DNA from: a virus | Strand: one strand, 5' to 3' | Length of the DNA: 64,000 nt | Virus record (IMG/VR): IMGVR_UViG_3300027810_000010 | Coordinates: 1 to 64,000 of that record | Shown here: positions 16,963-53,268 of the stretch, one piece after another | Position numbering within the stretch: position 1 is the first letter of the stretch | Layout of the letters: the number at the start of each line of letters is the position of its first letter | Position numbers and translations under genes: made by a program | The notes under the pieces: model-generated | What the model saw: only the letters and a program-made list of their open reading frames with translations | What the model was told of the DNA's origin: nothing | The model's database searches: none

Positions 16963-18471
16963 TTATATATCTCCATCAAATTTGACTTTCTTAATACTAT
17001 ATTCAAATTTTTCTTGTTTATAAATTTTTTGCCTAGCAATACTATGCTTATATAGGTAATTGTCCCATTCGTCTGTTCTAATATCATCTACAAAATCGAC
17101 TATTAATACTGCATCTTTAGACTCATGCTGCCTTAGACCTCTACCAATTGACTGTCTGATGATTACCTCGGATTTGAATGACTCTGTAAAGAATATGTTG
17201 TGAATTTTCTTGATAGAGATACCTGTCGAGAACGTTCCATAAGAAGCTACGATAACCACCTCATCTCCGGCTTCCATCTTCTTCTTATATTCTTCTCTAA
17301 TATCAGTTGCTGTTCCTCCGTCTACATAATATACCCTCTTATTTGTATTCTGTCTAAGATGCTCATATATTTTTTTACCATGCTCAATCCTATGAAACAA
17401 GACAAGTGAGTTCCTAGGAACCTTGCCAATAACACTACATATAAAGTTTAGTCGTCCGAATGAGTTTATTATGTAGTTTTGTTCTAGTTGGAATACATCC
17501 TTCCTGTCGTATTTATTATGTGCTAATTCTTCGAATGCCTTCTTTGCTTTTTCCGGAGCATAGTCCATTTCTATAACTTTGACTTTACATTTTGCAATGT
17601 GACCTTGTTGTTGTAGAAAACTTGCCTTAACTTCACTAATAACAGGACCCGTCTGGCTCATTAATGTTAATTTATCTAAAGATCCGTCCTTCGGAATAGT
17701 ACCTGATAAACCATATTTATAAATTGCACTTGTGCATTTTTGTAGTATAGTCTTGATTGAGTTAGATTTTGCTTTGTGAGTTTCATCAACAATGACAGCG
17801 TCGAACTGCTCGAAATATTCCTTTGGCTTTTTAACCAGAGATTGATATGTACCTATAACTACATTTCTATCAGATTTGATTTTCTGACCAGCGTAGATTT
17901 GTTGGATTTTTAAATTAATCCTATTCTTGTTATTGTATTCGTGGAAATCTTCATGTGCTTGAACAACTAGAGATACGTTAGGAACTATGAACAATATCTT
18001 TTTAGCATGTTCTTTTTCTAACATATAAGCTACTGTCAAGAATGATATTAGGGTTTTACCAGCAGATGTCGCTAGCTCAGCTAAACATCTTCTAAATTTA
18101 AGAATATTAAATGCTGTTTCTATTTGATAATCCCTTGGTGTAAATTTACTTCCTTCAAAGAACTCCAATGACCATGACTCAAAGGACTCTGCTCCTATGT
18201 TTCTATCAAATAGTCTTTCAATTCCATTAAGTTTAAGATCAAACTTGTATTCCTTACAAACGAGCATAACGTATCTCCAGAGACCAGCGGGAATCCACTT
18301 ATCATCTTTGATATATGAGACATACCCGTCCCATATTCCTTTTTTCACTAAAGGATTAAATCTCCAACTATCAATTCTTTTAGTTAAAGATATTTTAATC
18401 TGCTCTAGCTCAAGTTCCTCTGCTTCATCAATTCTTAAAAATTGATCATCTTCGGTTAAAGTTAAAATCAA
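16963..18471 (-). CDS. uvsW: UvsW-like DNA/RNA helicase (SF2)
   Basis: 502 aa, the length of T4 UvsW. An N-terminal domain (1-100) with WRFNPLVKKGIWDGYV precedes the helicase core: FTPRDYQIETA (Q-like motif, about 110-120), Walker A ATSAGKT at about 134-140, DETH box 229-232, SGT 256-258, then motif IV-VI with LVLFHRIEHG, VASYGTFSTGIS and QSIGRGLRQH. UvsW unwinds branched recombination intermediates and R-loops and shifts T4 replication from origin-dependent to recombination-dependent initiation. It sits with UvsY, primase and gp32 genes, so the replication/recombination set is conserved. The stop overlaps the promoter-like motif of the next block. Confidence 0.92.
   Translation of the reverse strand: MILTLTEDDQFLRIDEAEELELEQIKISLTKRIDSWRFNPLVKKGIWDGYVSYIKDDKWIPAGLWRYVMLVCKEYKFDLKLNGIERLFDRNIGAESFESWSLEFFEGSKFTPRDYQIETAFNILKFRRCLAELATSAGKTLISFLTVAYMLEKEHAKKILFIVPNVSLVVQAHEDFHEYNNKNRINLKIQQIYAGQKIKSDRNVVIGTYQSLVKKPKEYFEQFDAVIVDETHKAKSNSIKTILQKCTSAIYKYGLSGTIPKDGSLDKLTLMSQTGPVISEVKASFLQQQGHIAKCKVKVIEMDYAPEKAKKAFEELAHNKYDRKDVFQLEQNYIINSFGRLNFICSVIGKVPRNSLVLFHRIEHGKKIYEHLRQNTNKRVYYVDGGTATDIREEYKKKMEAGDEVVIVASYGTFSTGISIKKIHNIFFTESFKSEVIIRQSIGRGLRQHESKDAVLIVDFVDDIRTDEWDNYLYKHSIARQKIYKQEKFEYSIKKVKFDGDI
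16964..16971 (-). promoter_or_regulatory. candidate late promoter element GATATATA
   Basis: Minus-strand GGAGATATATAACTAA, 33 nt before the ATG of the 696-aa polyprotein, embedded in the last codons and stop of uvsW. Confidence 0.55.
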
Positions 18472-45817: not shown

Positions 45818-47638
45818 TTAATATTGTTTTCTATTTTTAGCCTGTATTTTAGCAAATATTGTATTCTTTACGGCCGGTTCATCGAAATAAACAGACATAG
45901 CTGCTTGTTCTCCTAGCTTTACAGAATCATCAACTCTTAATCCAAACCTATCTTCCCATCCACCTCGTATTAGTGCAATTTCTTCTTTTTCAAGAAGTAT
46001 ATCTCCGAAAGAATCTAAGTTTATTACATTCTCAGGAAGAGCTGCTCCTTCTTCAAATTTAACTTGTTTCTCAGTAACCGTTCTTTTAAAGTAAACCATT
46101 TTTTGTTTACCATTTGAAATTTCCTCTAACACAGGTGTCATTGGAGTTACAGTCACGGTCTTAGAAATATAATATCCGTTTTTTCTAGCAGTTTCTTCTT
46201 TTTCTGAAACAAATCTAATATTAACCGAATCTATTCCTTCAATTGATTCTATGATTGCTATAATGTCTGATTTTGGAAGACGATCTCTTCTTGTTATATT
46301 GATTAAGTATTCTGCGACTCTAGATCTTATCTCAGTAAATAGATTAGCTTTATGATATCCTTCAAAATATCTTACTTTAATATCCATTCTAAAATATTGT
46401 GCAACTGGATCTACTATTTTCACTTCAGTAGTTACCATCTGCCTTCCCGACTTTTCTAAAAGTCCAAGTATTCCTTCTTTTTCTATTTCAGTAAAAAGAA
46501 ATTCAGAAGAATCTAAACTAAAATAATCTTTATTATTTTGTAACTTCTTTTTAGTATCTGGCAACATAAACAAATAGATAACATTATCATCATCTAAATA
46601 TCCGTCATCTGTTGTGTTATATGCATCTAAATATGAAAACATTCCATATCTTGATAAAAAATGTTCATAATTATCAGGTGTAGCTAATACAAAAGAGTGT
46701 GATTGTAGAGGAGCTATTAATTTTGTTAATTCAATCTGTTCAGGGTTTGCTCCCATCATCGGAGTAACTGTAAATTTACTTTCTAACAATGCATTAAGGT
46801 CGTGTGTATTTCCTAAAGAATCAGTTCCTTCTGTTTCGAATTTAAATGTAAGATCTGTTTTACCATTTAAATTACCCATGGCACCTTCATTTTTTAAATA
46901 TTCTACGACGATAGATGCTCCATTCATTGGAATTTCACCAAATGAACCATTACCGAAATAAATATCTAAACCACCTGTAATTCCAGTCTTTACCATATAA
47001 CCCTGAGTTCCTCTTTTCATATCGTATAGAGAATCATATTTAGTCCATATACTAGAATTAATAGTAACTCTTACGAGTGAATGATCAGTTATTCCTTTAG
47101 TTATTATATTAAAGGATTGAAATGATTCTCCAGTTGAAGTAACTGTCTGTGATTCAAATTCACCTTGAACTACAGGGATTGTTATAAACCCAGAATTAGA
47201 TTTTTCTAATCTAAACTGGTCGTTATTTGTTCTTAGGGTGTAAACTAATGAATTATCATTTGATTTGATAGTAGCATTAGCAGGAATGTTTAAGGCATCT
47301 CCGGCTATATCATCTGTTCCCATCGTATTTAATCTAATCTCTATTTCACCAGAAGCGGCAGCTCCTCTAAATGAATCATGTCCAGCCAATCTCGCTAATC
47401 CGTAAATAGATTCAGGATTTTGTGCTGTCAGTATATTTTGCTCTACTGTTGCGTCTTCTATATAAAAGAATATTAATTTGGATATTTGAGATAATACATC
47501 TAATACCTGTGAAAAGGGAGATGCTGTAGTAAATAAGGTACCTGCGTTACCATATATTCTACTAACATACGTTCTAATGTCCGATATCATTTCTCCAGTT
47601 TTTATTCTAGAAGCTGATAAAAATTTATTTTCTGCCAT
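45818..47638 (-). CDS. 6: baseplate wedge protein gp6-like (baseplate J)
   Basis: 606 aa (T4 gp6 is 660). N-terminus FTTASPFSQVLDVLSQISKLIFFYIEDATVEQN and ESIYGLARLAGHDSFRGAAASGEIEIRL are typical of the gp6/baseplate-J family that forms the inner ring around the hub in contractile tails. The region KSDIIAIIESIEGIDSVNIRF near 465 fits the conserved C-terminal part. Follows gp25 directly, as in other phages. Strong call. Confidence 0.82.
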   Translation of the reverse strand: MAENKFLSASRIKTGEMISDIRTYVSRIYGNAGTLFTTASPFSQVLDVLSQISKLIFFYIEDATVEQNILTAQNPESIYGLARLAGHDSFRGAAASGEIEIRLNTMGTDDIAGDALNIPANATIKSNDNSLVYTLRTNNDQFRLEKSNSGFITIPVVQGEFESQTVTSTGESFQSFNIITKGITDHSLVRVTINSSIWTKYDSLYDMKRGTQGYMVKTGITGGLDIYFGNGSFGEIPMNGASIVVEYLKNEGAMGNLNGKTDLTFKFETEGTDSLGNTHDLNALLESKFTVTPMMGANPEQIELTKLIAPLQSHSFVLATPDNYEHFLSRYGMFSYLDAYNTTDDGYLDDDNVIYLFMLPDTKKKLQNNKDYFSLDSSEFLFTEIEKEGILGLLEKSGRQMVTTEVKIVDPVAQYFRMDIKVRYFEGYHKANLFTEIRSRVAEYLINITRRDRLPKSDIIAIIESIEGIDSVNIRFVSEKEETARKNGYYISKTVTVTPMTPVLEEISNGKQKMVYFKRTVTEKQVKFEEGAALPENVINLDSFGDILLEKEEIALIRGGWEDRFGLRVDDSVKLGEQAAMSVYFDEPAVKNTIFAKIQAKNRKQY

Positions 47639-47654
47639 TGTTATTTCTATTTCT

Positions 47655-48008
47655 TTATACGTAAACTCCTAATTGATATTTATTATCAATTATTATGTTT
47701 ATGAAAACCAGGTGCCTGTCTACTTCTTGTGTGAAATCTACATCAACTGATAGTTGATATTTTTGTGCAAGTGGAACATATTGATATATTTGTTCCATTA
47801 CTACGTTTTTTAATAAGTAATCATTGTAACTTAGTGAATATACGTAATCATTCAAATTGGCTCCAAAGTCAGGATCTCCTAATACATCTCCTTTTCTTGT
47901 GAAAAGAACCGTTTCGATCTGCGCTAACATACCGGAAATTTCAGTTGAATTTTCCAATTTTAAGGGGTCGAAATTAGGATCACCTAATGTTTTAATATAA
48001 AATTCCAT
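47655..48008 (-). CDS. 25: baseplate wedge protein gp25-like
   Basis: 117 aa (T4 gp25 is 132). The signature TRKGDVLGDPDFGANLNDYVY is that of the GPW_gp25 family (E/KGxxLGxPxFG), followed by a helix, LLKNVVMEQIYQYVP, and a C-terminal strand pair IINNKYQLGVYV-like ending. gp25 forms part of the inner baseplate and controls sheath assembly. A GAATATATA motif 5 nt before the ATG is too close to be a normal promoter. Confidence 0.88.
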   Translation of the reverse strand: MEFYIKTLGDPNFDPLKLENSTEISGMLAQIETVLFTRKGDVLGDPDFGANLNDYVYSLSYNDYLLKNVVMEQIYQYVPLAQKYQLSVDVDFTQEVDRHLVFINIIIDNKYQLGVYV

Positions 48009-48024
48009 TAAACTATATATTCTT

Positions 48025-48855
48025 TTAAGAATGCATCATCCAATCAGTGCCTTCATCATTTTTAATTTCTTCTATAACTGCTTCTAATTCTCCTTCACCA
48101 AGACCTTGTATAGCATCTGCATTAACTTCTACATTTCCAGGAAGTGCAAATCCAAATATACTTAATTTCTGTCCTAGTGAAATTTTAATCTTAGCTGCAC
48201 AGTATCTAAAAAAAGCTTCATCTTCAAATAATGCGCATTCAGGAATAGTTTCATATACTTCTAAAATTATATTCTTATTAGGAGTTTCACCCGTAAATCT
48301 TATTTCATGGGTTAATTGGTTATAGTGATACCCTATTGGGTTTTCTAAGATTTGCCTAGCAAGATCAAAAAAGCTTTCGTTTACGACATAATATTGTAAA
48401 TTTTCTGCAGCATCAACTACTCCATCTCCGGAGAACATTCCAGTATATAACATTCTGTCAATCGCAAAATCTCCTTGTGAGAAATTAGAATCAGATCCAG
48501 CGTATTTTGATCCTGTTTCGAAACAACCATATACCGAATATACTTCACCTCCACCAGTAGCGGCATCCATTCCTGGAAGTGTAAATGATCTTTTAGTTTT
48601 AAAGTATTCTGATGAAAATAATTCAACAGGTAACACTACAAAGTTTTCTTTCATAGAATACTCATAGTTCTTATAAAACCATTTCTTCGCTCTTTTAACT
48701 ATTCTCTGAACCTCTGCCTTAGGAAGGTTCATAGGGATCATACATGACCCTGTTACTTCAGATGCTAGTTCATCAACAAAATTATTAAAACATTCCGTAT
48801 CCCAACTAGGAACACTTGTCATGTCATTTTCATTACCAATTATTATATCACTCAT
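48025..48855 (-). CDS. virion structural protein, neck or baseplate candidate
   Basis: 276 aa, not identified. A helical N-terminal part (IPMNLPKAEVQRIVKRAKKWFYKNYEYS) is followed by beta strands and a region of acid-rich helix at the end (LGEGELEAVIEEIKNDEGTD). Context: first gene after the amidoligase-like gene and immediately upstream of gp25. Proteins of this shape are common as head-tail or tail-completion proteins in T4-like phages, but no diagnostic motif is visible. Confidence 0.45.
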   Translation of the reverse strand: MSDIIIGNENDMTSVPSWDTECFNNFVDELASEVTGSCMIPMNLPKAEVQRIVKRAKKWFYKNYEYSMKENFVVLPVELFSSEYFKTKRSFTLPGMDAATGGGEVYSVYGCFETGSKYAGSDSNFSQGDFAIDRMLYTGMFSGDGVVDAAENLQYYVVNESFFDLARQILENPIGYHYNQLTHEIRFTGETPNKNIILEVYETIPECALFEDEAFFRYCAAKIKISLGQKLSIFGFALPGNVEVNADAIQGLGEGELEAVIEEIKNDEGTDWMMHS

Positions 48856-48870
48856 ATTGTTTTATTGTTT

Positions 48871-50166
48871 TTAAACTTCAGTGTAAAGTATTTTTTCTGT
48901 CTTATCGAACTTTGCAGTTCTTTTATCGTATCTACCCATTCTAAATATACCGCCTGTCATAGAACCTTTCATAAGTCCGTTTCCGTATATATAGCAATCG
49001 TTTAATTTACATGATTGATGAACGTATGAACTTTCTAATTTAGATGAATTTAATTGCGTGGATTGATAGAAATTACTAGAATGTATATCAGAGCCATTGA
49101 CATCACATCCAAAGAAATCACACTCAGTGAATTCTCCTCTGACATAACATCTTACGAATTCATAACCTCTAAGATCTACACAATACGGCAATCTACCACC
49201 CTCAATTTGAATCATACCATTATCTGAATCATAATTAATATGACCGGATTCTAATTCTCCATGTGAAAATAATCTTAAAACCCTCTCTTTTATATTAGAC
49301 CAATGCATGTCTATAATCTGTGGAGTGTCTTTAAGATCAACTGTTAATTTAACCTTACCTGACCATCCTTTTTCAATACTTTTCCAAGATGATCTTGCAT
49401 TAATGATCCTCTCATTACTTGCTAATATTTTTCTAAGTTCTATTGCATGTAATGGATCAAACGAAGTATTCTCAGTGCTTTTCCATAGTTGCATAAGAAA
49501 CATATCAAGTAGATGTAATATTTTAGTAGTCTTTTTCTCCCAGTCTTTTCCACCAATATATCTAAATTCTAAATAATTGTTATGTCTTTTTTCAAAATTA
49601 ACTCCATAATATTTAGAATCTGGAAATGTAAATGCAAGTGGAGTAATATTTAATCCATCAAAAAAGAAATTATCAGACTTAGGCAATACGAACTTAATTG
49701 ATTTTGCGTATGCAGAGTCTTTTCTTTCTGGAAAAAACTTAAAAACTTGAGCTTCTTTAAAATCTAAAATAAACTTAAGAACATTCATCTTAGAGATTCT
49801 GTATTTATTTTCTATAAGATTTTTATCAAATGAAATATTCAAGTGAATGGAAGATCTATCATTTGTATATCCATTTTCTTCAATCCACTTACATACTTTA
49901 ATAATCATCATCCTACTAGAATAATAGGGAACTGCGCCTGTTACGAGTTCCATTAGCTTCTCGCCACCGCTCATATCAGGTTCAATCTTAAATTCATCAG
50001 CTGTTACTTCAAAATCACTATGTGCCTTTGCCTCTACTCTAATTTTCTTACCTAAAAGAATCGATATTTCTTTCGCAGTATCTTCAATACTTTTGTTAGA
50101 ATAGAATTCAAATTCTACCCCGACAAGAGCTTTCTTTAATACTTCTGAATCGTTGAATGTGTTCAT
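48871..50166 (-). CDS. amidoligase-like enzyme with C-terminal pentapeptide repeats
   Basis: 431 aa. N-terminal two-thirds match the putative amidoligase (ATP-grasp-related, carboxylate-amine ligase-like) family: GVEFEFYS at 16-23, DFEVTADEFKIEPDMSG, MELVTGAVPY at about 72-81 (canonical EivTPpl region), and SSIHLNISFD at 105-114 (H-x-N/H-x-S). The C-terminal 345-395 is a pentapeptide-repeat array with repeats such as CDFFG, CDVNG, SDIHS, SNFYQ, STQLN, SSKLE. Amidoligases form peptide bonds between amines and carboxylates and in phages may modify cell wall, virion or host proteins. Pentapeptide quadrilateral helices can mimic DNA. Own promoter-like GATATATA 28 nt upstream. Confidence 0.65.
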   Translation of the reverse strand: MNTFNDSEVLKKALVGVEFEFYSNKSIEDTAKEISILLGKKIRVEAKAHSDFEVTADEFKIEPDMSGGEKLMELVTGAVPYYSSRMMIIKVCKWIEENGYTNDRSSIHLNISFDKNLIENKYRISKMNVLKFILDFKEAQVFKFFPERKDSAYAKSIKFVLPKSDNFFFDGLNITPLAFTFPDSKYYGVNFEKRHNNYLEFRYIGGKDWEKKTTKILHLLDMFLMQLWKSTENTSFDPLHAIELRKILASNERIINARSSWKSIEKGWSGKVKLTVDLKDTPQIIDMHWSNIKERVLRLFSHGELESGHINYDSDNGMIQIEGGRLPYCVDLRGYEFVRCYVRGEFTECDFFGCDVNGSDIHSSNFYQSTQLNSSKLESSYVHQSCKLNDCYIYGNGLMKGSMTGGIFRMGRYDKRTAKFDKTEKILYTEV

Positions 50167-50194
50167 TTACGTGTTTATATAACTTAAGTTGGTT

Positions 50195-50202
50195 TATATA
50201 TC
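50195..50202 (-). promoter_or_regulatory. candidate late promoter element GATATATA
   Basis: Minus-strand AGAAAGATATATAAACC, 28 nt upstream of the amidoligase-like gene and downstream of the terminator of the S1 gene. Confidence 0.55.
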
Positions 50203-50223: not shown

Positions 50224-50250
50224 TAAAAAAAGCCCGGTCAAGACCGGGCT
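50224..50250 (-). terminator. intrinsic terminator after the S1-like gene
   Basis: 9-bp perfect stem AGCCCGGTC/GACCGGGCT (50231-50239 with 50242-50250) and a 2-nt loop, followed on the minus strand by TTTTTTTATTT. A clear rho-independent terminator that isolates the S1 gene from the structural gene after it. Confidence 0.9.
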
Positions 50251-50270
50251 TATCTATAATTAATTCAATA

Positions 50271-51560
50271 TTACAGTTTCAAAAACACCTTTCGAGTATC
50301 TTCTTCAACTCTCACAACTTGAACTGTGATATTTGAACCTCTATCGATAGTTTTAATATCTATATTATCTGGAAATTCAGAAATATGTAATAGTCCAACG
50401 ACTCCTTCTTCTATTTCTATAAATAGACCATAGTCTTTTGTCGATTTTACAGTTCCTATAACCTCAGTTTTTTCCGTATATCTTGTAGAAATACCTTCCC
50501 ATGGATCAACTTTCTTTTCAGCCGGAGCACCCTGCACTAATGTGATCTTTCTTTCACTAATAACTTCTTTTACAAAGAATTTAATTTCAGTTCCAGGTTC
50601 TATACTTCTTTCTCTATGAGCTTTTCCAGTTTCCATATCTAGGTCGTTAACGTGAATCATTCCAGTTAAACAACCTTCAAACTCAACAAATACACCATAC
50701 TTGGCAGAACCAGTAACATTACCTATTCTTTCAATGGAAATGTCTTCAGAAATTTCTTCTAATTTGTTAGGTATAAGTGCTCTAAGATATGCTCTATGAG
50801 AAACTACAACAGTTCCTTTTTCGGGAGAATAACTAACTGGCACTACATACATTTCTTCTCCGATAATTGATTCGAAGTCTACTAGTTTATTAATTCCTGC
50901 AAGAGATCCTGGCATAAAACATTCAACTCCTTGAATATCTAAAATATAACCTCCACCTGGGATCATTCTAAGGACCTTACTCGTATATGCAGTTGTTCCT
51001 GCCTCAATAGAACTAATGATATCCTTGATGATCTTAGTTTTTAATCCAGCTGAAACAGAACCTAACATATGTTTAGCACCACCTACACCGGACTTAGATA
51101 TTAACTGAACATCAACTTCTGCATTTTGTTTTAAAACTTCAAGTGTTTGTGCATTTTCTCTAGAAAGATTTACATAAATAAGTTCTCTATATCCTACGTC
51201 AATAGAGGCCCATTCTGTATCGATACCGTATACTTTACCAGTATAACTTGCACCTTCTTCTATTGAATATACTAATGGATTAAGAATTTCATTTTCTTCC
51301 ATACTATTATATAACTCCTGTGCGTAGCTTTCTCTAGAGAATACTCTATCGCCATTTCTGGTTTTAATATGTGGATTGGGTTTTCTGAATCTGGTAGGGC
51401 ATGTAGCTTCGTATGCTTCCCAGTCGAATTCTTCTGGCGGAACGTTTGCATTTTCAAGTGCTGTTGATTCCTTTGTGATAGTTGGAGAGTCTACTACTAC
51501 TTCAACTTTTTCTTTTTTTGGTGAGAGATCTAATCTCTTTCTTTTTGTGTCTGTTGACAT
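50271..51560 (-). CDS. ribosomal protein S1 homologue (four S1 domains)
   Basis: 429 aa. Four S1/OB repeats: about 103-172, 188-260, 275-343 and 364-429; the last two have textbook S1 signatures (GSAKYGVFVEFEGCLTGMIH; KDYGLFIEIEEGVVGLLHIS). N-terminal region with EEFDWEAYE at 43-51 resembles the start of Bacteroidetes ribosomal protein S1, as I recall it. In bacteria S1 captures mRNA on the 30S subunit and is central where Shine-Dalgarno sites are absent. A phage S1 could replace or compete with host S1 to favour its own leaders. Isolated monocistronic unit: GATATATA 40 nt upstream and a strong terminator. Confidence 0.85.
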   Translation of the reverse strand: MSTDTKRKRLDLSPKKEKVEVVVDSPTITKESTALENANVPPEEFDWEAYEATCPTRFRKPNPHIKTRNGDRVFSRESYAQELYNSMEENEILNPLVYSIEEGASYTGKVYGIDTEWASIDVGYRELIYVNLSRENAQTLEVLKQNAEVDVQLISKSGVGGAKHMLGSVSAGLKTKIIKDIISSIEAGTTAYTSKVLRMIPGGGYILDIQGVECFMPGSLAGINKLVDFESIIGEEMYVVPVSYSPEKGTVVVSHRAYLRALIPNKLEEISEDISIERIGNVTGSAKYGVFVEFEGCLTGMIHVNDLDMETGKAHRERSIEPGTEIKFFVKEVISERKITLVQGAPAEKKVDPWEGISTRYTEKTEVIGTVKSTKDYGLFIEIEEGVVGLLHISEFPDNIDIKTIDRGSNITVQVVRVEEDTRKVFLKL

Positions 51561-51600
51561 TTAGTTTATTTTAAAAGTGTTAATGTATAAATTTACTAGT

Positions 51601-51608
51601 TATATATC
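51601..51608 (-). promoter_or_regulatory. candidate late promoter element GATATATA upstream of S1 gene
   Basis: Minus-strand ATGTGATATATAACTAG, 40 nt upstream of the S1-like gene; overlaps the end of the preceding structural gene. Confidence 0.55.
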
Positions 51609-53268
51609 ACATTACGGTGGCGTCAAATCCTATCATAGGAATGAAAGGAACTATAGGAACTGTAATTCCTCCAAGGTATATGAACTTCATTTGTGAAAGA
51701 TGTGTAAAATAAGAATACGCTAATGCACTAGCGACTGCCGCTGCTGCGTCAGGTGCAGAATTCATATCTTTTCCAGAATTAAGTGCTCTTCTTAGATTAT
51801 CTGCAAGCTTTTTTTGATTACCATAACTTACACCAACGTAAAGACCACCTAATGGTAAATTAATGGTGCATGGTGGAGTTGGTGACATTGGAGCAAATGG
51901 AGCTACTGCTGCTGCTTTCCAATATTCTAATGTGGCTTTTGCTAATTCTTTATAAGGATCGTCCTTACTTCCGCCTTCAGCTAACATCTCATCTTCCAGT
52001 GCCTTTTCAGCTATCATCTTATTTCTTATTTGCTTGAAAAGTGTTCCACATTCTGAAAGATCTGCATTTAATATCTGCTGATCTCCATCACCTGCACCTA
52101 GAGGACATCCTTGCCATTTTTTTCTTAATTCTGTCTTTTCATAATATTCTATCTTAGGGCCAGGATTACCGTAACTACGACTTCCTACATCCCTGTACGT
52201 CATGTCTATAATTACTTCCGTCATCAGAACCGGTGGCATCTTTGCATTTTCATCAAAAGATTCCTGTATTTTAAATCTATTTAATTCAAACGGATATCTT
52301 ACTAATAATTTATCAGCAGGTTCCATGTCATCATATCCCTCTGGAAGTTCTTTAGTAAAAGGCCACCATACTGTAGCGTCTACTTCTTTCACAGCTGCCC
52401 TATCTATAGCTTTATTCCTTGCGCTTTCTTCTGTTATCGTTCGAGTATATTTCCTACCACTTACATAATATACTTCTTCCGTAGAAAAAGGATGCGTCTG
52501 AAACATTTCATGTGTAACATATGCATAAACTTCATTATATATGTCATACTGTGAATTGGCTCCTGTTACAGACCTCGTAACTGCCTTTACTTTACTCCTG
52601 CAACTTTGAGTAGCACTGTAATTCGTTACAAGATTTGAGGTAGATTCCTTAAAAGCATTCATAAAATCCCAGAACCTTTTTCTTTCATCTGATTTTTTTA
52701 ATTCTTTGAATTGCATTAATAACCTTGTTGCAAATATTTTAGCAAGTTGCATTGGTGTTTCCTCTCCATCAAGTCTATGAAATTCAAAGTTTTCAAATTT
52801 AGATAAATTTTCTACATCATCATCCTTATAGTCTTCTATATACTTGTCAAGTTCCTCACTTGGTTCATATGAAATACCTCCACCTATGTCTTCTTCTAGT
52901 TTTTCATAATCTGGATCTTGATCCTTGCCTTCAACTGTAAGCCTAGTTTCCTGTCCTTCGGGAGTTGCTAGGAAATTTAGCATATTTTGCTTTTCGTTTA
53001 CTATAGGTGCTTCATCATCGGGAGTCAACATAACGGGTTCACCCTTTTCAAAAAGATCTTGAAACCATTGTTCATAGCTTGAAATAAATGAAGGTTCTCC
53101 AGGAGATGACATGTGTTTCGCATTACCAGGAATACACACTGCTTTAGTTTTTACAGCTGAAAGATATTCTGCTGCAAGTTTATTTCCAAAGTCAGGAGCT
53201 GACTCTGGAGATTGACTTAATAGAATAGTAGTTACGTTACTTATAAAAGTTCCCCAATCTGCTGCCAT
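51607..53268 (-). CDS. virion structural protein, tail/baseplate candidate
   Basis: 553 aa, not identified. Acidic N-terminal third (LEEDIGGGISYEPSEELDKYIEDYKDDD), central DELKR helices and YVSGRKYTRTITEESARNKAI, and a C-terminal Ala/Pro-rich end (VAPFAPMSPTPPCTINLPLGG; SAPDAAAAVASALAYSYF). It follows gp5-like by 7 nt. Could be a hub-associated or tail-tape-like companion, but no family signature is seen. Confidence 0.45.
   Translation of the reverse strand: MAADWGTFISNVTTILLSQSPESAPDFGNKLAAEYLSAVKTKAVCIPGNAKHMSSPGEPSFISSYEQWFQDLFEKGEPVMLTPDDEAPIVNEKQNMLNFLATPEGQETRLTVEGKDQDPDYEKLEEDIGGGISYEPSEELDKYIEDYKDDDVENLSKFENFEFHRLDGEETPMQLAKIFATRLLMQFKELKKSDERKRFWDFMNAFKESTSNLVTNYSATQSCRSKVKAVTRSVTGANSQYDIYNEVYAYVTHEMFQTHPFSTEEVYYVSGRKYTRTITEESARNKAIDRAAVKEVDATVWWPFTKELPEGYDDMEPADKLLVRYPFELNRFKIQESFDENAKMPPVLMTEVIIDMTYRDVGSRSYGNPGPKIEYYEKTELRKKWQGCPLGAGDGDQQILNADLSECGTLFKQIRNKMIAEKALEDEMLAEGGSKDDPYKELAKATLEYWKAAAVAPFAPMSPTPPCTINLPLGGLYVGVSYGNQKKLADNLRRALNSGKDMNSAPDAAAAVASALAYSYFTHLSQMKFIYLGGITVPIVPFIPMIGFDATVM

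Follow-up and report, generated by a model that had tools for sequence, protein, structure and literature searches.

A phage-lineage homologue of ribosomal protein bS1 encoded in the tail module of an uncultured virus

How start codons are chosen without Shine-Dalgarno (SD) pairing in the Bacteroidota is a question for which ribosomal protein bS1, the component of the bacterial ribosome that captures mRNA, is the main suspect. Phages, too, encode S1. Al-Shayeb et al. (2020) described rpS1 in phages, observed a correlation with the lack of SD sequences, and proposed that initiation is hijacked (PMC7162821). Mizuno et al. (2019) noted earlier hints of viral bS1 and showed that viral bS21 and bL12 are incorporated into ribosomes (PMC6375957). 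Bacteroidetes phages also encode bS21, the neighbour of S1 at the ribosome's mRNA exit site; bS21 substitution has been proposed, and incorporation has been shown for a pelagiphage bS21 (Mizuno et al., 2019, PMC6375957; Chen et al., 2022, PMC9723584). Phage S1 and its proposed role in initiation are, of course, already known, and the gene described here adds another member.

This gene lies in a stretch of 64,000 nucleotides ("the window"), positions 1 to 64,000 of the 64,891-base virus record IMGVR_UViG_3300027810_000010. It occupies exactly the interval listed in Table 1 and lies on the minus strand, as do all 48 predicted genes kept (at least 90 aa). The window also encodes a T4-type DNA alpha-glucosyltransferase (AGT; 1635-2876), which suggests glucosylated phage DNA; no tRNAs were found in it.

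The protein matches residues 20-344 of E. coli bS1 collinearly, that is, domains 1-4 (D1-D4); it ends at its fourth OB fold (OB4) and has neither D5 nor D6. Only OB3 and OB4 pass the Pfam S1 cut-off. OB1 and OB2 are visible through the collinear E. coli match, the rpsA models, and an AlphaFold model. The last of these contains four OB folds with helices at residues 47-53 and 80-93 (mean pLDDT 79.6; pTM 0.53, a value at which domain orientations are unreliable).

The best NCBIfam family is rpsA (E 2e-38), with models at 133 and 132 bits. PNPase reaches 37 bits and RNase R 23 bits, and in both only the S1 domain is matched. The rpsA equivalog cut-offs (368-918 bits) are far from reached by 133 bits, and this, in turn, means that the protein is a homologue of rpsA rather than an orthologous one. 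The predicted structure finds its top PDB match in the bS1 of a 30S mRNA delivery complex (E 1.5e-26); RNase R appears among the structural matches at 5e-5. The feature that marks membership in the bS1 family, tandem OB domains collinear with D1-D4 and including the FxPGS signature of D2, is present. By its scores, the tree, the structural match, and its N-terminal signature, the phage protein is a true bS1 homologue of the Bacteroidota type. Scores and domain order rule out an exoribonuclease (PNPase, RNase R) or the S1 domain of a regulator.

The Bacteroidota character is seen near the N-terminus. Over the first 150 residues, an FxW motif occurs in 25 of 26 Bacteroidota bS1 proteins, in 1 of 54 bS1 proteins from other bacteria, and in all 23 related phages; the S1 proteins of Prevotella Lak phages have it as well. 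The original prediction had read this locus, from the letters alone, as a ribosomal protein S1 homologue with four S1 domains and a Bacteroidetes-like FDWEAYE segment, placed amid tail genes in its own transcription unit. On each of these points the evidence given here and below agrees with it.

Whether such a protein might sit on a ribosome can be approached through residues known from E. coli. There, the anchors of bS1 on uS2 are Phe5 and Phe9 in an N-terminal helix, Lys43, which enters the zinc pocket of uS2, and Phe79, while Lys117, Phe120, and Phe130 of OB2 face the mRNA (PMC10123108). In the alignment, Phe5 and Phe9 correspond to the hydrophobic Leu83 and Met87 of the phage protein. At the position of Lys43, which is Lys in all ungapped bacterial sequences, 28 of 29 phages have Arg or Lys (all 23 related phages and all 5 huge phages), and Lak has Ser. 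Phe79 is not kept. Of the set that docks on uS2, the phage proteins have thus retained the hydrophobic residues of the helix and the basic residue, and not Phe79. On the mRNA-facing side, the Phe130 position (phage Phe215) is Phe in 29 of 29 phages, the Phe120 position (phage Tyr205) is Tyr or Phe, and the Lys117 position is Pro in most. Conservation along the protein is highest in OB2 and OB3, OB2 above all (28 of 65 columns invariant). Judged from these residues, phage S1 is likely to keep most of the features used for docking on the ribosome. The Lak proteins have neither a match to OB4 nor the basic residue facing uS2, and may work differently.

Among relatives, dN/dS of the S1 gene lies between 0.04 and 0.22; the gene is under purifying selection. 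What selection has kept can be compared with what E. coli needs. Cells whose bS1 lacks D5-D6 are viable, and D1-D3 suffice for 30S binding and form a minimal functional core; loss of D5-D6 does bring slower growth and cold sensitivity (PMC3858243).

A first scan of IMG/VR returned 43 relatives, and a wider one 548 stretches encoding relatives, of which the best 80, all with at least 51% identity, were kept. Among 50,697 phage records, real homologues were confined to huge phages (462-735 kb), all uncultured, and to Prevotella Lak phages. Two other high-ranking matches, in "Acinetobacter phage MD-2021a" and in MT835643, were set aside as bacterial sequence, the S1 there being full-length and grouping with bacteria. 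Ordinary bacterial rpsA stands in two public "phage" records, MT835643 and CAKLQH020000011, likely through bacterial contamination.

All 29 phage S1 proteins, the huge-phage and Lak copies included, fall into one clade (support 100) in a 112-sequence tree. A long branch sets this clade apart from every bacterial bS1; long branches also leave the exact root unsure. Identity between phage and bacterial proteins is about 25-30%. In a smaller tree, a union of the phages with the Bacteroidota was not rejected (p-AU 0.52). Recent capture of the gene from a present host is not supported, since the phage proteins are one old clade. Within the S1 family these proteins make up an old branch restricted to phages, hundreds of uncultured ones among them, and phage S1 is better regarded as a conserved core gene of many phages than as an occasional oddity of giant ones.

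The surroundings of the gene (Table 1) are conserved. The tail module that houses S1 in the window does so at almost every distinct IMG/VR locus and in LR756500, a 462 kb phage: a gene for a gp5-type OB protein (the 53276-type gene) lies upstream of S1, and the 48871-type gene downstream. The immediate upstream neighbour is, for the most part, the 51607-type gene. With the gp5-type, Ad2-like, gp25-like, and gp6-like proteins around it, S1 is indeed surrounded by tail genes. The 48871-type gene is found near S1 across the clade, and elsewhere only in huge phages; in the window, its product has a weak pentapeptide-repeat match at the C-terminus. The neighbours of S1 are different in the 630-735 kb phages and in Lak phages.

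Table 1. Features of the S1 locus and its surroundings, in window coordinates
Feature	Coordinates	Strand	Remarks
CDS, phage bS1 homologue	50271-51560	-	429 aa, OB1-OB4, no D5-D6
FDWEAYE, residues 45-51, Bacteroidota-type bS1 N-terminal FxW segment	51408-51428	-	
Predicted N-terminal helix, residues 79-93, candidate uS2-docking helix	51282-51326	-	AlphaFold helix 80-93
OB1, residues 103-170	51051-51254	-	E. coli bS1 match, AlphaFold
Arg125, equivalent of E. coli bS1 Lys43	51186-51188	-	Alignment
OB2, residues 192-256, with FMPGS bS1 signature	50793-50987	-	Conservation
OB3, residues 276-345	50526-50735	-	Pfam S1, 35 bits
OB4, residues 360-428	50277-50483	-	Pfam S1, 41 bits; AlphaFold
Conserved upstream neighbour, tail module	51607-53268	-	Adjoins S1 in most relatives
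Conserved downstream neighbour, Amidoligase_2-like	48871-50166	-	Own GATATATAA at 50194-50202
Head-tail adaptor Ad2-like protein	48025-48855	-	
gp25-like baseplate wedge protein (weak match)	47655-48008	-	
gp6-like baseplate wedge protein	45818-47638	-	Homologues in cultured Bacteroidota phages
GATATATAA, promoter-like motif upstream of S1	51600-51608	-	Overlaps stop codon of upstream gene
GATATATAA, all exact minus-strand copies	1089-1097, 16963-16971, 50194-50202, 51600-51608	-	
Leader element TTAACACTTTTAAAA	51569-51583	-	TTAAC core common to most relatives
Intrinsic terminator after S1	50230-50251	-	9 bp stem and T-run, z -3.4

The gene has signals of its own on both sides. Every one of the four exact minus-strand copies of GATATATAA in the window lies 34-48 nt upstream of a gene start, a placement expected for 4.1% of the strand (p 3e-6), and the plus strand has no copy. 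By its placement, the motif resembles a promoter element of the phage. Upstream of S1 a TATATAA motif is conserved: an ATATATA core is found at -75 to -31 in 21 of 23 related phages (shuffled mean 0.8). The T4 late consensus TATAAATA was considered as the S1 promoter and shows no enrichment upstream; a sigma-70 scan gave no more matches than chance. Nor is the S1 leader specially conserved, as autoregulation might have it: its overall identity is no higher than that of other leaders. Downstream, most relatives have a hairpin and T-run after S1, and the stem sequences differ among them.

Leaders without SD sequences had figured in the original prediction, which argued from them to S1-dependent initiation and so to a role for the phage S1. 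The premise is correct: SD-like motifs occur in 3 of 48 window leaders, against 2.3 expected, which is the level of chance. The same test in other bacteria gives 86 of 300, against 38 expected. Further, A is enriched at -12 in the window leaders (0.75 versus 0.46). In F. johnsoniae, leaders have the same A-rich region, at -14 to -11, near domain 4 of bS1 (PMC6847099), and F. johnsoniae bS1 stimulates translation of an SD-less mRNA (PMC9976891).

The rest of the chain does not carry as an argument. Five cultured relatives, Bacteroidota phages with homologous baseplates (PTm1, pT24, PAU, MaF61, MA9V-1) encode neither S1 nor bS21, as judged for S1 with a profile that detects known positives. Their leaders have SD motifs in 3 of 141 cases and the same A-rich stretch at -14 to -11. 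Because these S1-less, bS21-less relatives are equally SD-less, the lack of SD sequences follows the host and not the phage S1, and the S1 gene is not needed for such leaders. As an argument for phage S1, the lack of SD is confounded by the host, and it must not be read as evidence of what phage S1 does.

It does bear on what the host is. The FxW signature, leaders of the Bacteroidota type, and the homologous baseplate proteins that cultured phages of Tenacibaculum, Flavobacterium, and Chryseobacterium encode together make a Bacteroidota host very likely; no direct link to a host was found.

S1 in most of these phages has a second ribosomal protein for company. Of 24 S1-positive records that are 54 kb or longer, 19 have a bS21 gene (PF01165), among them 4 of the 5 huge phages examined; Lak phages have none. 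With 0 of 5 among the S1-negative cultured relatives, the co-occurrence has p 0.002, an optimistic value, as near-identical contigs inflate the bS21 counts. The 94 kb contig IMGVR_UViG_3300002154_000004, whose S1 protein is identical, has bS21 at 71829-72026, about 23 kb from S1, a position that falls outside the window. Its bS21 gene is flanked by DnaJ-, PhoH-, and RNase HII-like genes, as judged by eye from the sequences. The phage bS21 ends KAIYRQ..., preserving an aromatic residue roughly where F. johnsoniae has Tyr54, the residue that blocks the anti-SD (PMC9723584). A tblastn search of phage records with the phage bS21 gave no matches, and hence no background rate. IF-3 was considered as a further regular partner and rejected; it was seen in just two of the huge phages, LR756500 and LR756501, both of which carry S1.

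What, then, might the protein do? The reading that we narrowly favour, built on the computed bS1 homology, domain content, docking residues, clade, locus, selection, and bS21 co-occurrence, is that it is a late, ribosome-exchangeable bS1 core that would, with phage bS21, remodel the mRNA-exit site of the host 30S subunit. Here, a phage-lineage bS1, derived from or shaped by Bacteroidota bS1 and cut to the functional core OB1-OB4, would be expressed from a promoter of its own within the tail module. It would dock on uS2 of the host 30S, replacing the loosely bound host S1; phage bS21 would sit beside it at the exit site, and phage S1 would support initiation on SD-less, A-rich phage leaders. 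We infer the binding to ribosomes, which is likely, as well as the exchange with host S1 and the late timing; a preference for phage over host mRNA is speculative. Against this reading count the frequent Pro at Lys117, the missing Phe79, and Lak without an equivalent of Lys43, together with the low identity, the long branch, the score under the rpsA cut-offs, and the equally SD-less leaders of relatives that have no S1. A larger claim is more tentative, and we would sooner bet against it than for it: that a two-protein kit of D1-D4 bS1 and bS21 rebuilds the exit site, in an SD-independent host, into a phage-type platform preferring late phage mRNAs, throughout a large and ancient group of Bacteroidota phages.

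Other readings use the same residues differently. A four-domain S1 seated on uS2 could displace the six-domain host S1 and so lower translation of those host mRNAs that depend on D5-D6, without any particular affinity for phage mRNA. The retained docking features, the missing D5-D6, and the slow growth and cold sensitivity of E. coli cells so truncated fit such a shut-off. Initiation remains good in these cells, however, and a pure blocker would not need the RNA-facing OB2 and OB3 that are the most conserved parts; we consider this unlikely. It is also rather improbable that the protein acts away from the ribosome, protecting phage mRNA from decay or serving as a cofactor of an RNase or of transcription, as host S1 does for T4 RegB. 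Free S1 has many such roles, and T4 RIII, by targeting S1, prevents it from activating RegB (PMC9409239), but an extra-ribosomal role does not predict that OB1 and the basic residue facing uS2 are kept or that bS21 is co-encoded.

Should host S1 be lost, modified, or attacked, whether by phage or by host defence, phage S1 and bS21 might keep ribosomes active. The pairing with bS21 fits this, as does a clade that is old and highly divergent, yet under purifying selection; we give replacement of this kind only a small chance. Reuse of the S1 scaffold as a virion or tail-assembly protein, which the fixed position inside the tail module might suggest, is very improbable: the promoter-like motif and terminator set S1 apart from its neighbours, the S1 genes of the 630-735 kb and Lak phages do not stand beside homologues of these tail genes, and the RNA-binding residues of OB2 and OB3 are conserved. 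If the favoured reading of a ribosome-docked core holds or not, compact bS1 cores shaped by natural selection, and bS21 with them, are test pieces for learning which S1 domains and contacts matter.

Set beside Bacteroidota bS1 (rpsA), the phage protein has the same FxW segment, the helix before OB1, the order OB1-OB4, and the D2 signature, but it differs in most of its sequence, in lacking D5-D6, and in standing outside all bacterial clades. A solved structure of a Bacteroidota-type bS1 exists (PDB 9zcd). The closest viral UniProt models are A0A7S9STL2 (Virus NIOZ-UU157), A0A8D9CG03, and A0A6J5NIG6, two of which are named 30S ribosomal protein S1 by database annotation only. Chen et al. (2022, PMC9723584) describe Bacteroidetes phage bS21 and mention no S1 in the main text, whereas window-type phages carry both. 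The rpS1 genes of Al-Shayeb et al. (2020), those of LR756500-LR756504, LR745206, and the Lak phages, fall in one clade with the window S1; the phages described here, unlike those huge phages, have contigs of 60-180 kb. What is new beyond that work is a clade with a conserved locus fixed in the tail module, residue-level evidence for docking, the pairing with bS21, and a host control for the lack of SD sequences.
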